NCBI RefSeq assembly: GCF_030540825.1
Contig: NZ_JAUOEO010000002.1
Location: 682,001 to 746,000, forward strand
Source of the DNA: Flavivirga spongiicola
GTDB taxonomy: Bacteria > Bacteroidota > Bacteroidia > Flavobacteriales > Flavobacteriaceae
Length of the DNA: 64,000 bases
Reading direction: 5' to 3'
Under the pieces are notes generated by a model. It was not told the DNA's origin. It saw only the letters and a program-made list of their open reading frames with translations, and did no database searches. Below are positions 19,101-24,255 of the stretch, one piece after another (positions within the stretch are counted from its first letter, which is position 1; each line of letters starts with the position of its first letter). Position numbers and translations under genes: made by a program.

Positions 19101-19125
19101 ATTTTTGTACATTGAGGTCATATCG

Positions 19126-20250
19126 ATGTATATAAATAGTAAGCATAGAATTTTTGGATTAGATATTATTAGAGCATTAGCTATTTTATTGGTTTTATGC
19201 TCACATTCTACACTGTTACTTTTTCCAAATCAAAATAATGTATACCTAACTGTCACTCAGTTTTTCGGAACAGTTGGAGTAGACCTTTTCTTTGTTTTAA
19301 GTGGTTACTTAATTGGAGGGATCTTGCTAAAACAGATCAATGAAGGAAAAGTAACGGTTAAAGACTTTCTGTATTTCTGGGTACGAAGGTGGTTTAGAAC
19401 TTTACCAAATTACTTCTTAATTCTTATTTTAAATATTCTGCTCTTTTATTTTTTACATGAAAAAATCATCGAAAATATTTTTTATTTTTTTGCTTTTTTA
19501 CAGAATTTTTCAAGCCCACACCCGGGCTTTTTTACAGAAGCGTGGAGTTTGTCCATTGAGGAGTATGCCTACATAGTTGGCCCTTTAGCCCTACTTATTT
19601 TAATGACCTTTTTTAAAAATTGTTCTAAAAAGACTTTATACATAGTAATGTCGCTGGTCATCATAATTATAATAACTTTTTTACGCATAAATTATCATAC
19701 GAATCATGATATCATTTCACATCACGATTGGAGTAAGCACATAAGGAAAGTAGTTATTTATAGAATAGATAGCATTTATTATGGTTTCCTTGCTGCATTT
19801 TTAGCGCAAGTATTTCATTCAGCTTGGAATAACTATAAAAAATGGTTTTTAGTACTAGGGATATTGTTATTTATTGGATTGCATAGCTGTGTTTTCTTAT
19901 TTAATATGCAACCGGAAAATTCCCAATTGTTTTTTAATGTTTTTTACTTACCATTATTATCAATAAGTCTATTGTTGTTTTTTCCTTTTTTTAGTAGCTG
20001 GAAAACAGGTGGGCCTTTTAAGAATACAATCACTAAGATAAGTGTCCTGTCCTATGCTTTATACCTTATTAACTATTCTATAGTGCTGCTTACAATTCAA
20101 AACTTTATTAGTGTAGAGGGGACACCATTGGTGATCAAATTTTTAATTCTCTTACTGTATTGGTTTTTATCATTTGGATTATCATATTTATTATTTAAAT
20201 ATTTTGAAAGACCAATGACTAATTTAAGAGATTCAAGTTTTTTTAAATGA
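19126..20250 (+). CDS. OafA/YrhL-type membrane acyltransferase (copy 1)
   Basis: Family 3 acyltransferase, about 374 residues and ten hydrophobic segments. I chose the ATG at 19126 (MYINSKHRIFGLDIIRALAI); the frame is open from a TTG at 19105. Motifs: FGLDIIRALAILLVLCSH with the catalytic His, FFVLSGYLIGG, YFWVRRWFRTLPNYF, FFTEAWSLSIEEYAYI and the C-terminal FERPMTNLRDS. The family moves acyl groups across the membrane onto glycans, lipids or small molecules. A paralog with the same ends (copy 2) lies 2.9 kb downstream. The real acceptor is unknown. Confidence 0.88.
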   Translation: MYINSKHRIFGLDIIRALAILLVLCSHSTLLLFPNQNNVYLTVTQFFGTVGVDLFFVLSGYLIGGILLKQINEGKVTVKDFLYFWVRRWFRTLPNYFLILILNILLFYFLHEKIIENIFYFFAFLQNFSSPHPGFFTEAWSLSIEEYAYIVGPLALLILMTFFKNCSKKTLYIVMSLVIIIIITFLRINYHTNHDIISHHDWSKHIRKVVIYRIDSIYYGFLAAFLAQVFHSAWNNYKKWFLVLGILLFIGLHSCVFLFNMQPENSQLFFNVFYLPLLSISLLLFFPFFSSWKTGGPFKNTITKISVLSYALYLINYSIVLLTIQNFISVEGTPLVIKFLILLLYWFLSFGLSYLLFKYFERPMTNLRDSSFFK

Positions 20251-20276: not shown

Positions 20277-20870
20277 TTATTCCGATAGAAGAAAAGAAAT
20301 GTCTCTTTTTAATCGATTAACTTCTTCGTCAACCAATATATTATAAAACCCTCTTATGGATTGTTTTTTATCAACCAAGGAAACATAACTGCTGTGATAA
20401 AAATCAAGGCCATCTTTTTTAGGCTTAAAATCAGTTATAAATTGATTAGCCTGATCTCTGGTTTTATCAGTATTAGCATATAAAAACTGCCATGTATCAT
20501 TAGGAATTTCCGTTGATTCTGAGTAAGATTTTAAAACGGAGATGCTATCATTTTTTGGATCGATTGTATGCGAAACGATCATAAAATGATGGTTATTTTT
20601 AAAGGCTTTAGCAATGTCTATTAATTCATCCCTCATTGGTGGACAAATACTTGGACAGCGCGTAAAGAAGAAATTTGAAATGAAGACTTTATTCTCGATA
20701 TTTTTAGTGCCAAAAGTTTCATTCAGTTGATTCGTAAATCCTTCGTATTTAATTGAATAATGTGTTTTATTTCCTGAGTCATCAATCTTATAACTTAAAA
20801 CAGGAAGCTTTTCTGAATTGTTTTGACAACTCAAAATGAGCAATAAAATAAGAACCCTAAGAAGTTTCAT
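20277..20870 (-). CDS. Sco1/SenC-family copper lipoprotein
   Basis: 197 residues. Signal MKLLRVLILLLILSC with lipobox Cys15. Thioredoxin-like domain with the Sco metal site: Cys72 and Cys76 in RCPSICPPM and His159 in DFYHSSYVSLVD. Sco proteins carry copper (or reduce thiols) for copper enzymes such as cytochrome oxidase; no oxidase gene is near. Its start overlaps the end of the upstream gene by 14 bases, so the two are translationally coupled, which suggests it supplies copper to that protein. Confidence 0.85.
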   Translation of the reverse strand: MKLLRVLILLLILSCQNNSEKLPVLSYKIDDSGNKTHYSIKYEGFTNQLNETFGTKNIENKVFISNFFFTRCPSICPPMRDELIDIAKAFKNNHHFMIVSHTIDPKNDSISVLKSYSESTEIPNDTWQFLYANTDKTRDQANQFITDFKPKKDGLDFYHSSYVSLVDKKQSIRGFYNILVDEEVNRLKRDISFLLSE

Positions 20871-22017
20871 CTGGCTTTTGATTGTATCTTTTTAATTTTT
20901 CATCCATCTCCTTGTCATATAAAAACATAAACATACTGGCCATCATGTCTTGATTAATATTTGAGGTATTATTCGTTTTTAAAACTAACTCGTATTTGTG
21001 ATCGGAATAAAGTTCAATGCCTTTTTCACCAGAAAAATAGGTAACCTCCTCGAGGCCTATTTTATTTATATAATTTTTCGCTTTACTAACAAATAATGTA
21101 GAGTCAATAGTTTTGTCTCTAAAAGATAGAGTTTCAGAAAAAGGATGTAAATGAGTAGCAATAAGGTGTAAAGTGGTGTTTTCTGATAATTGTAACTGTT
21201 CAGTAATATCTGTTTTATAAATAGCCTCACCTGGAAAAATAACCCAGTGTCCAGAATAAGAAATACCATCTTTATAAGTATAACTATGATTTTTAGTCTC
21301 AATAGGTAAACACATATTTGGGTTTTTTGTAGTTGGACCATCATAAGGGTTTTCGGAATCGTATGGTAAAACAATCATAACTGGTTTTGTCATAATTGGT
21401 TTCATATTTTCGTTGTGCTTCTCATAGCCAATATTTATTTCATGTTTAACAGAAAATGCATCTCCAACAATATTATGATTTAGAGTTTGAGTGGTTAAAA
21501 ATAAATTTTCGTTACTAAAAACAGGAAAGCCAAAACCTTTAGGAAGTCGATAATTTTCAATACCACTAGTCATTGTTGTTAAACGTGGATATTGTGAGCC
21601 AATTCTATGATTTAATCCCCACCTCCCATAGTGTTCACTATCATAAAAATCAATATTTGTGTGACATATAAAGTCATTTGAAATGTCGCTATCTTCGTTG
21701 TTATTTATGGCTTTAGTTTCAAAAGAAGTTATCCAAAGTAAGTCTGATTTTTTAGAATTTAATTGAAATGGTTTTATTACTTGGGGCCCTTCCATAGATT
21801 TATATATATTATCAATTACCATCGTTGGAGTAATTAGTGAAATAGAATGATCTTTTGAAGTTATATTCCATGTATTGTCAACGAATCCAAGTTTGTGAGA
21901 CAGGTATGTTTTTACAATAGCTTTATGTCTATTAGAAAGATTTAGATAATAGAGACCGGCAATTGTAATTACCAATAAAATTAGAAAAACAAAATATTTT
22001 GTTACTTTAGATTTCAT
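20857..22017 (-). CDS. Membrane-anchored protein resembling PHM/DBM copper monooxygenases
   Basis: 386 residues with one N-terminal anchor (about 7-25) and a large external domain. I see a pattern like the type-2 copper monooxygenase fold: Cys118-His119 in DFICHTNIDF (first copper site, where PHM has His-His), His181 in LTTQTLNHN, the His-x-His of the second site in IATHLHPF (His289, His291), and a late Met in DMMASMFMFLYD (Met359), corresponding to PHM DEMCNLYIMYY. Spacing and order agree with PHM, but overall similarity is low and there is no classical HHM triplet. Overlap with the Sco gene supports copper. It could instead be a structural relative without activity. Transcribed divergently from the next membrane protein. 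Confidence 0.5.
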   Translation of the reverse strand: MKSKVTKYFVFLILLVITIAGLYYLNLSNRHKAIVKTYLSHKLGFVDNTWNITSKDHSISLITPTMVIDNIYKSMEGPQVIKPFQLNSKKSDLLWITSFETKAINNNEDSDISNDFICHTNIDFYDSEHYGRWGLNHRIGSQYPRLTTMTSGIENYRLPKGFGFPVFSNENLFLTTQTLNHNIVGDAFSVKHEINIGYEKHNENMKPIMTKPVMIVLPYDSENPYDGPTTKNPNMCLPIETKNHSYTYKDGISYSGHWVIFPGEAIYKTDITEQLQLSENTTLHLIATHLHPFSETLSFRDKTIDSTLFVSKAKNYINKIGLEEVTYFSGEKGIELYSDHKYELVLKTNNTSNINQDMMASMFMFLYDKEMDEKLKRYNQKPDETS

Positions 22018-22073: not shown

Positions 22074-23129
22074 ATGTCAAAAAGGTTATTGATTAGAGTA
22101 TTATTAATTATTAGTTTCGTAATTCCATTAATATTAAGTTTTTCTGTTTGGTTCTCAAATAGAGGATTTCCAACTACACCATTATTTTTTAAAACTTTAG
22201 AATTTAATTATTATATAGATGTATTGCTATTAATAGTTTTTTGTGCGTCAGCTGTTTGGTTTCTTTTAAAAGATAAGGGGAGCGGAGGCTTATGTTTTTT
22301 TCTTATATACATTTTATTGTCTGTTTTTGATCAAACACGAATTCAACCTTTCTTTTTTGAAATTGCCATAATTATTTTCTTTTACTATTTATTTAGGAAT
22401 AATTTTAATCATTTTAAAATGGCCTTTTTCCTGCTTATGGCAGGTACTTACATTTGGAGCGGTTTACATAAAGCCAATGTTGTTTTTTATGAATTTTGGT
22501 TTGAAGGCTTAAATAAAAGAATACCATTTATCCCCGTTTTTTTTAGACAAATTTTTACTTGGTTAGTGCCTTTTATCGAGGCATTATTTGGAGTGGCATT
22601 ACTGTTTAATAAAACTAGAAAACTTGGTATTTATATGTTAGCACTCATGCATGCAATGGTTTTAATAACCTTGATTTATAGTGGTGTAGGTTTTACTGTA
22701 TTTCCATTAAATATGATTAATGTTGTATTGCTTTTTATGCTATATAATGGTTTTGATTGGAATATATTTAAATTAAGGAATAGCAAGAGCATAAAAATAA
22801 AAATCGTTGCTTTTTATGCTTTAATATTACCAGCCTTAAACCTGATAGGTTATTATGATCATTTATTGGCATTTAGTTACTTTTCCGGCAAGCCATCATA
22901 TTGCAATATCTTTTTTTTAAATAAAGAAGACAAAAGTAAAGTTCCTGAAAAGGTTCAGAGCATTATAAGAGAGCACGAAGGAAGATATTATATAAATGTA
23001 AATGAGTGGAGTCTTGTTTACGTAAATTTATTATGTTATCCGGAAGATCGTGTTTATTTATATTTACAAGATTATTTAGAAACGTTTACAGGGACGAAGA
23101 CAACCTCCTTACAGTATTATAAAAAATAA
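22074..23129 (+). CDS. Polytopic membrane protein, HTTM/DoxX-like
   Basis: 351 residues, about eight hydrophobic segments followed by a soluble C-terminal tail of about 75 residues (IIREHEGRYYINVNEWSLVY). The stretch TYIWSGLHKANVVFYEFW followed by helices with FIEALFGVALLFNKTRKLG looks like HTTM/DoxX-type proteins, the membrane part shared with vitamin-K carboxylases, but I am not certain. It is followed by the second acyltransferase after a single base, so both are co-translated. Function unknown; the neighbourhood points to modification of an envelope or exported product. Confidence 0.55.
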   Translation: MSKRLLIRVLLIISFVIPLILSFSVWFSNRGFPTTPLFFKTLEFNYYIDVLLLIVFCASAVWFLLKDKGSGGLCFFLIYILLSVFDQTRIQPFFFEIAIIIFFYYLFRNNFNHFKMAFFLLMAGTYIWSGLHKANVVFYEFWFEGLNKRIPFIPVFFRQIFTWLVPFIEALFGVALLFNKTRKLGIYMLALMHAMVLITLIYSGVGFTVFPLNMINVVLLFMLYNGFDWNIFKLRNSKSIKIKIVAFYALILPALNLIGYYDHLLAFSYFSGKPSYCNIFFLNKEDKSKVPEKVQSIIREHEGRYYINVNEWSLVYVNLLCYPEDRVYLYLQDYLETFTGTKTTSLQYYKK

Positions 23130-23130
23130 T

Positions 23131-24255
23131 ATGAAGCAAAGAGTTTTTGGCTTAGATTTAGTTAGAGCAATTGCTATAGTCATGGTTGTTTTTTCACATG
23201 TTGCATGGATAATCCCTAAAGACAAGAAGTTAACATTGGATGTCTTGAGTGTTTTTGGGGTTCTTGGTGTAGAAATCTTCTTTGTACTCAGTGGGTTTTT
23301 AATAGGCAGAATTATATTTAGAATATACACTTCTGATGATTTTAGTTTTTCGAGTATTTTTTATTTTTGGATCAGGCGTTGGTTTAGAACGTTACCAAAT
23401 TATTATTTAGCATTACTGATTAATATTTGTGCAGCTGTTTATATTGGAATGACACTACCAGATGGTTTATGGAAATATGTTTTCTTTATTCAAAATTTTT
23501 CATCGGAAATGCCAAGGTTTTTTATGGAGTCATGGAGCTTATCTATTGAAGAATTTGCATATCTTTTATTACCATTATGCTTGTTTTTTACACTTTTTAT
23601 AAAAACAAAAATTTCAAAGCCTAATACGTTTTTAGGGATGACGCTTCTAATTATTTTTCTATTTATTATTTCAAAGACAATTTACAATTTTAATGAGCCA
23701 GTTCGAACATTGATTAATTGGAATAATAGCCTTAAATCTATCGTTATTTATAGAATAGATGCTGTTTATTACGGTGTATTAGCTGCTTATATTTCAATTG
23801 TAAAAACGAAATTTTGGAAGCGCATAAAATATACTTCTTTTGGTTTGGGAATGCTTCTATTTTTAAGTTGGAATGTATTAATGTTAATCAAAGCAGTGCA
23901 AATTGAAGAATATTCTTTTGTATGGAATGTATTATATCTCCCAATGAACTCTATTATAATCATGTTAATGTTTCCTTTGTTAAGTCAAATGAATACTGCT
24001 CCTGAGTTTATTTTGAAACCTATTACTTTTATTAGTGTTATTTCATATGCCATATACGTTATACACTATTCTGTAATATTACAATTACTTAAATACTTTA
24101 TACCCTCTAATAATTTACCTGATTTTGATATTATGGTCTATATCATAGTATATATATCCTCGACTATCTTGATATCTTATATCATTTATCGATTTTTTGA
24201 AAGCCCAATAACTAAATTAAGAGATTCAAATTTTATCAAAAAAAGATTTATTTAA
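23131..24255 (+). CDS. OafA/YrhL-type membrane acyltransferase (copy 2)
   Basis: 374 residues, paralogous to the gene at 19126 along its whole length. Shared motifs: FGLDLVRAIAIVMVVFSH (catalytic His), FFVLSGFLIGR, FYFWIRRWFRTLPNYYL, FFMESWSLSIEEFAYL, YRIDAVYYGVLAAY and a C-terminal FESPITKLRDSNF. The ATG follows the TAA of the HTTM-like gene after one base. The pair of acyltransferases brackets the copper genes, so duplication may have accompanied formation of the block. Acceptor unknown. Confidence 0.88.
   Translation: MKQRVFGLDLVRAIAIVMVVFSHVAWIIPKDKKLTLDVLSVFGVLGVEIFFVLSGFLIGRIIFRIYTSDDFSFSSIFYFWIRRWFRTLPNYYLALLINICAAVYIGMTLPDGLWKYVFFIQNFSSEMPRFFMESWSLSIEEFAYLLLPLCLFFTLFIKTKISKPNTFLGMTLLIIFLFIISKTIYNFNEPVRTLINWNNSLKSIVIYRIDAVYYGVLAAYISIVKTKFWKRIKYTSFGLGMLLFLSWNVLMLIKAVQIEEYSFVWNVLYLPMNSIIIMLMFPLLSQMNTAPEFILKPITFISVISYAIYVIHYSVILQLLKYFIPSNNLPDFDIMVYIIVYISSTILISYIIYRFFESPITKLRDSNFIKKRFI

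Follow-up and report, generated by a model that had tools for sequence, protein, structure and literature searches.

Can a copper enzyme of the peptidylglycine alpha-hydroxylating monooxygenase (PHM) and dopamine beta-monooxygenase (DBM, also DBH) type keep its oxygen site while a cysteine takes the place of a histidine in its electron-supplying site? The question is raised by a gene of Flavivirga spongiicola. The window analysed here is the whole stretch of 64,000 nucleotides at positions 682001-746000 of contig 2 (NZ_JAUOEO010000002.1) in a 5.9-Mb genome; it carries a gene, present in a single copy in this genome, for a 386-residue protein, P0001, overlapped at its end by a gene for a Sco1/SenC-like protein. 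An initial annotation, made from the sequence alone, had proposed a PHM/DBM-type enzyme with Cys-His instead of His-His in the first copper site (CuH). We find that P0001 has the predicted PHM/DBM fold and belongs to a family in which the candidate ligands of the second site (CuM) are invariant and the cysteine at CuH is nearly so.

Predicted fold and homology to PHM and DBM

The open reading frame of P0001 was exactly as annotated (Table 1), and the residue numbers C118, H119, H181, H289, H291 and M359 were all correct in the translation; the opposite (plus) strand across 20857-22017 is riddled with stops. Searches with the single sequence of P0001 brought up nothing from Pfam or NCBIfam with the E limit set at 5, not even the profile hidden Markov models Cu2_monooxygen (PF01082) and Cu2_monoox_C (PF03712), and nothing from the PDB sequences with the limit set at 10. 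Similarly, PF03712 searched through the whole genome of the window at E up to 10 gave no match. A PF01082 search of 40 relatives gave no match either and was uninformative, as the controls were also silent.

Structure prediction followed by a fold search, which the initial annotation had proposed as a check, gave P0001 the PHM/DBM fold. The AlphaFold2 model (pLDDT 85.5, pTM 0.82) has an N-terminal helix (residues 2-26), which we take as a membrane anchor, and then a body rich in beta structure that corresponds to the two domains of the PHM core. The top PDB fold matches are PHM/DBH entries, over a two-domain beta-sandwich at residues 47-375, so that both beta-sandwich domains of the PHM core are present in the model; the best Z in the fold search steps from 9.3 to 16.5. 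The best-matching structures, 6ALA and 4ZEL chain A, are both closed forms with one copper. Closed PHM/DBH forms bring the two copper sites together, according to PMC6123673.

The homology chain runs through a sister family (P0121-P0232, including L119:3185-4210, minus strand, in G356), which is unannotated, has a predicted PHM fold and has few named members, from Rhodothermia and Gemmatimonadota. Its model also fits the closed forms 6ALA and 4ZEL chain A best. Compared by HHalign with two subgroups of bacterial PF03712 proteins separately, the sister family reached probabilities of 85.2% and 65.7%, and its ligand residues fall on the ligand columns of these proteins, save for the third CuH position, which is occupied by Met154 and not by His156. 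As the sister profile run against the PDB gave a chance match alone (a Nudix-type hydrolase, E 0.35), the link between the sister family and PHM is drawn from HHalign and the fold, not from HMMER. Other matches were rejected: the P0001-family profile returned 35 weak PDB matches (nucleoproteins, a receptor; E 0.69 or worse) taken as chance, and an HHalign score of 99.3% was set aside because a plainly wrong alternative alignment in the same comparison reached 98.9%. Two of 45 sister proteins gave a weak Pfam match to SURNod19 (best E 0.16), possibly by chance.

Conservation of the candidate copper ligands

A contig scan by conserved peptide patterns, one of which contains Cys-His itself, identified at least 79 loci, and C118, H119, H181, H289, H291 and M359 were kept in all 79 aligned rows (the window protein and 78 loci). 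A protein database search with P0001 gave 785 matches, 120 of them listed; among the matches listed, the closest named relatives are from Flavivirga species (80-86% identity). A search with a divergent member gave 56 matches, some with a C-terminal cyclophilin domain. Conservation was counted in 248 sequences (238 distinct), namely P0001-P0120, P0233-P0282 and the 78 loci; near-copies are included, and every sequence was gathered for its resemblance to either the window protein or the divergent member, so the 248 cannot be treated as independent samples. The counts exclude one gene copy, in Flavobacterium chromosome CP096136.1 (L078:5995), whose reading frame is broken after 61 amino acids, and retain P0065, the sole row without C118, in which H119 is missing too.

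Residues H289, H291, M359 and C236 were kept in 248 of 248 homologues, C118 and H119 in 247 each. Other histidines were nearly as constant (H192 in 246, H284 in 245, H257 in 239, H244 in 232). The only cysteines of P0001 are C118 and C236; no other cysteine column comes close to being filled throughout the homologues (the next is filled in 32), and the two co-occur in 247 of 248. The His-x-His and the methionine expected of CuM in the second domain were thus found at the level of sequence. Met358 was weighed as an alternative CuM methionine (its QDM resembles the DEM of PF03712 proteins) and rejected: it is present in 235 sequences, with Ser or Ala in the other 13, while Met359 is invariant. 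Met359 is also directly aligned, at low probability, to the Met of DEM.

At CuH, the profile alignment places C118-H119 on the invariant His102-His103 of the sister family. The three-histidine set of PHM (H107, H108, H172) was not found: mapping via the sister family puts Cys at the H107 position in 247 of 248 homologues. By its predicted fold P0001 would belong to the superfamily; in this feature it departs from strict membership. The third ligand is ambiguous. His181 falls at PHM H172 by direct alignment, yet with a probability of 7.1%; via the sister family it sits on H156, two residues past the PHM-type histidine position (sister M154). The proposal that the ligand candidates follow the PHM order stands, by profile alignment to the sister family, for C118-H119, H289/H291 and M359, and the replacement of His-His by Cys-His holds as well; what cannot be taken over as it stands is the plain Cys-His-His reading, which left H181 unquestioned and overlooked C236. 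Because C118-H119 is nearly fixed, C236 is fixed and H181 is nearly fixed with an ambiguous equivalence to H172, the first site may be read as Cys-His-His, as Cys-His-Cys or as a copper-free Cys118-Cys236 disulfide.

Two members of the family (P0267 and P0268) have Leu at H181, Tyr or Phe at H192 and Phe at H257, and retain Cys118, His119, Cys236, the HxH and Met359; both are relevant to the question of which residues the first site requires.

The linked Sco gene

The Sco gene starts 14 nucleotides inside the end of the P0001 gene, and its product has the CxxxC and the distal histidine of Sco1/SenC proteins. Cys72 and Cys76 (CxxxC), His159 and Cys15 are conserved in all 31 linked Sco proteins; Cys15 is a possible lipid-anchor cysteine, and a simple lipobox pattern was found in 13 of the 31. 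Of the 76 loci where the sequence continues for 700 bases or more past the gene, 30 have a Sco gene directly downstream, abutting or overlapping; two further loci are outside this count because the sequence ends too early.

In a tree built from 77 family members plus four sequences of the sister family (L063 and L076 were omitted as short), the presence of Sco required 5 changes, compared with a mean near 25 after shuffling. Linked Sco occurs on several deep branches, the long-branched L079 among them, and a branch of Flavobacterium and Gilvibacter lacks it as a group. This fits an old link lost later; support is poor at the deep forks, and the bootstrap had not stabilised. The lineages without linked Sco keep C118 and C236, hence Sco in cis is not required, and Sco may be supplied from elsewhere in these lineages. 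The genome of the window has seven Sco-family places with E no higher than 0.001, six of which pass the cut-off, so the window Sco is not its only one. The coupling to Sco that had been proposed is real here as an overlap of genes, and is not general: an adjoining Sco gene was found in only 30 of 76 relatives, and the Flavobacterium branch has none at this place.

A PHM-like protein from the same bacterial family as the window (L099:1450-3246, minus strand, G118) has a weak N-terminal match to the thiol-disulfide oxidoreductase ResA (E 1.6e-5, below the curated cut-off), which may parallel the Sco linkage in fused form.

Distribution and gene neighbourhood

A phylum-wide sample of 395 genomes yielded clear members in 3, the window's own included; weak matches beyond these were seen in G049, G220 and G254 (E 0.09-0.26). 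In a sample of the window's bacterial family, 19 of 249 genomes carry a member (20 matched, one discounted). The discounted match, in G499 (E 0.0055), was attributed to chance, as it falls in a gene reading like alanine racemase. Copies from metagenome bins titled Bifidobacterium breve (L061), Sphingobacterium thalpophilum (L063) and Algicola (L022) group with Flavobacteriaceae, as judged from the tree for L061 and L022 and from 47% identity for L063; these bins are probably misnamed or contaminated.

The pair of genes is flanked on the plus strand by genes for a MauE-like membrane protein and two acyltransferase-3 proteins. In the 69 loci for which 3 kb of upstream sequence is available, this region contained aconitase (65 loci), an acyltransferase-3 gene (55) and a MauE-like gene (11); a MoxR-type ATPase gene lies downstream in many loci. 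Conserved gene order around P0001 is by itself no functional link.

Table 1. Position of the P0001 gene, its candidate ligand codons and adjacent genes in the window
Feature	Position	Strand	Evidence
P0001 gene, PHM/DBM-fold protein (predicted), 386 aa	20857..22017	minus	Open reading frame, structure model, PDB fold matches
Cys118-His119 codons, at the CuH His-His pair (PHM H107-H108)	21661..21666	minus	Conservation and profile alignment
His181 codon, candidate third CuH ligand, motif LNHN	21475..21477	minus	243/248; aligned to sister H156
Cys236 codon, second invariant cysteine, inside an insert	21310..21312	minus	248/248; no sister counterpart in profile alignment
His289-Leu290-His291 codons, candidate CuM HxH	21145..21153	minus	248/248; aligned to HxH of sister and bacterial PHM-like proteins
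Met359 codon, candidate CuM methionine	20941..20943	minus	248/248; aligned to sister Met302
Sco1/SenC-like copper chaperone or thiol reductase	20277..20870	minus	Pfam PF02630 (SCO1-SenC), E 3.7e-16
MauE-like membrane protein and two acyltransferase-3 genes	22074-23129, 23131-24255, 19105-20250	plus	

Discussion

We consider it rather probable that P0001 is a periplasmic, membrane-anchored member of the PHM/DBM superfamily that has kept CuM, has rebuilt CuH with Cys118, is assisted by Sco and acts as a hydroxylase. From the fold match, the homology chain, the residue conservation and the gene overlap, which were computed, we infer the location, metal binding, electron route, hydroxylation, role of Sco and substrate. 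The C-terminal domain would retain CuM (His289, His291, Met359) and bind and activate O2 there. The N-terminal, electron-supplying copper site would be rebuilt with Cys118 for the first CuH histidine and His119 as the second, and His181, Cys236 or both would complete it. Sco would load copper or hold the two cysteines reduced, the site with the thiolate would hand its electron on to CuM, and O2 would then hydroxylate a periplasmic substrate. If active at all, the family is predicted to work like PHM/DBM. We propose more tentatively, as a possibility worth keeping in view, that the electron-entry copper is a thiolate site matured by Sco, Cys118-His119-Cys236 or Cys118-His119-His181, in a non-coupled two-copper monooxygenase. 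Cys2His is the ligand type of Sco, and Cys-His-His is the core of type 1 copper.

Several observations weigh against a hydroxylase with a rebuilt CuH. The Foldseek TM-scores to PHM/DBH are modest (0.32-0.47 by query length), and the ligands are candidates assigned at the level of sequence. Direct HHalign comparison of the P0001 family with bacterial PF03712 proteins was weak (2.4%; subgroups 3.2% and 0.5%), a later one gave 7.1% with C118 and H119 unaligned, and sister Met302 was unaligned in one comparison of the sister family with PF03712 proteins. No adjoining Sco gene was found in 46 of 76 loci with the window Sco as query, which a far diverged Sco could escape. His181 is not fully fixed (Gln in three and Leu in two of 248). 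In rat PHM, according to PMC6123673, the three CuH histidines are highly conserved and H107A, H108A and H172A are each inactive; the altered site might, on this basis, mean an inactive enzyme. Finally, Cys118 and Cys236 could pair as a disulfide.

Such a disulfide, structural or redox-active, would leave CuH without copper and one copper at CuM; the protein would then serve as an oxygenase with one copper, carry copper or sense redox state, with Sco as its thiol-disulfide partner. It would suit the co-occurrence of the sole family-wide cysteines, the lack of both in the sister family (His at 118, the insert with 236 absent), the CxxxC of Sco and the resemblance of the model to the closed forms, which are one-copper forms in PMC6123673. 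A plain disulfide would not, however, need H119 (247/248) or H181 (243/248), little weight can be put on the angle between the domains in an AlphaFold model, and the His-His sister prefers the same closed forms; we regard this explanation as unlikely. That P0001 has inherited the fold without any catalytic metal, as a structural or glycan-binding periplasmic protein, in line with proteins of related, PNGase F type folds in which the fold by itself does not determine what the protein does, is highly improbable in view of the invariance of the CuM ligand set, which extends to members about 28-35% identical to P0001, and of the step in the best Z.

The predicted fold would equally be that of an ordinary PHM acting on glycine-extended peptides. 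The arginine two residues before the first CuM histidine of PHM contacts the peptide carboxylate, and PHM has several disulfides. The corresponding residue 287 is Ala in P0001 and in 204 of 248 homologues, and among the 245 of 248 tallied as Ala, Thr, Val, Ile, Ser or Gly there is no Arg; P0001, with two cysteines, lacks the several disulfides of PHM, and CuH His-His is replaced by Cys-His in 247 of 248. Peptide amidation is not inferred, because the CuH set and the residue before the CuM HxH differ, and we give an ordinary PHM hardly any credence.

The preferred hydroxylase with a rebuilt CuH would make this family a promising predicted variant of the animal copper enzymes that amidate hormones and make noradrenaline. 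A natural family that has fixed Cys at CuH together with a second, co-conserved Cys is a ready-made experiment on what an electron-transfer site needs, and bears on whether PHM/DBM enzymes work via the closed form. The usual client of Sco is cytochrome c oxidase; the P0001 family suggests another.

Comparison with known systems

What is new is the recognition of two families without a Pfam or NCBIfam name, that of P0001 and its His-His sister, as predicted PHM/DBM-fold proteins: in the scanned members of both, no Pfam or NCBIfam family passed the cut-off for the PHM-like part. Among the results of searches of the open-licence literature, we saw no account of a PHM-like protein from bacteria whose first copper site has a cysteine, nor anything on the two families. 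The initial annotation had presented P0001, if real, as a distant bacterial branch of an enzyme family mostly known in animals; the branch is indeed new and unannotated, but bacterial relatives of PHM are not rare, with PF03712 over the cut-off in 17 of 198 Bacteroidota genomes.

P0001 shares with rat PHM (1PHM, 1SDW, 6ALA) and human dopamine beta-hydroxylase (4ZEL) the predicted two-domain beta-sandwich, the order of HxH and Met in the second domain and an adjacent ligand pair in the first. It differs from them in having Cys as the first of the His-His pair, an uncertain third CuH position, an extra insert with the invariant Cys236 and only two cysteines; it is bacterial, apparently membrane-anchored, and about 10-12% identical to them in structural alignments. 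The bacterial PF03712 proteins of Bacteroidota (loci L084-L103) have HxH and Met on the same profile columns as the P0001 family, and are detected by Pfam, unlike that family. Their His-His pair is invariant in the 18 proteins aligned (L090 and L098 were omitted), as is a CxxCH motif of the heme-binding type, and a pattern scan found HH in 20 of 20. The sister family has His102-His103 in 112 of 112 proteins where the P0001 family has Cys-His, and no counterpart of Cys236. The cyclophilin-fused relatives carry a C-terminal Pro_isomerase domain (cyclophilin-type peptidyl-prolyl isomerase), which passes the cut-off of Pfam for P0272 and P0274 and is given by precomputed domains for P0273 and P0279; they have Cys-His, Cys236, HxH and Met359 in common with P0001, and Ser or Ala instead of Met358.
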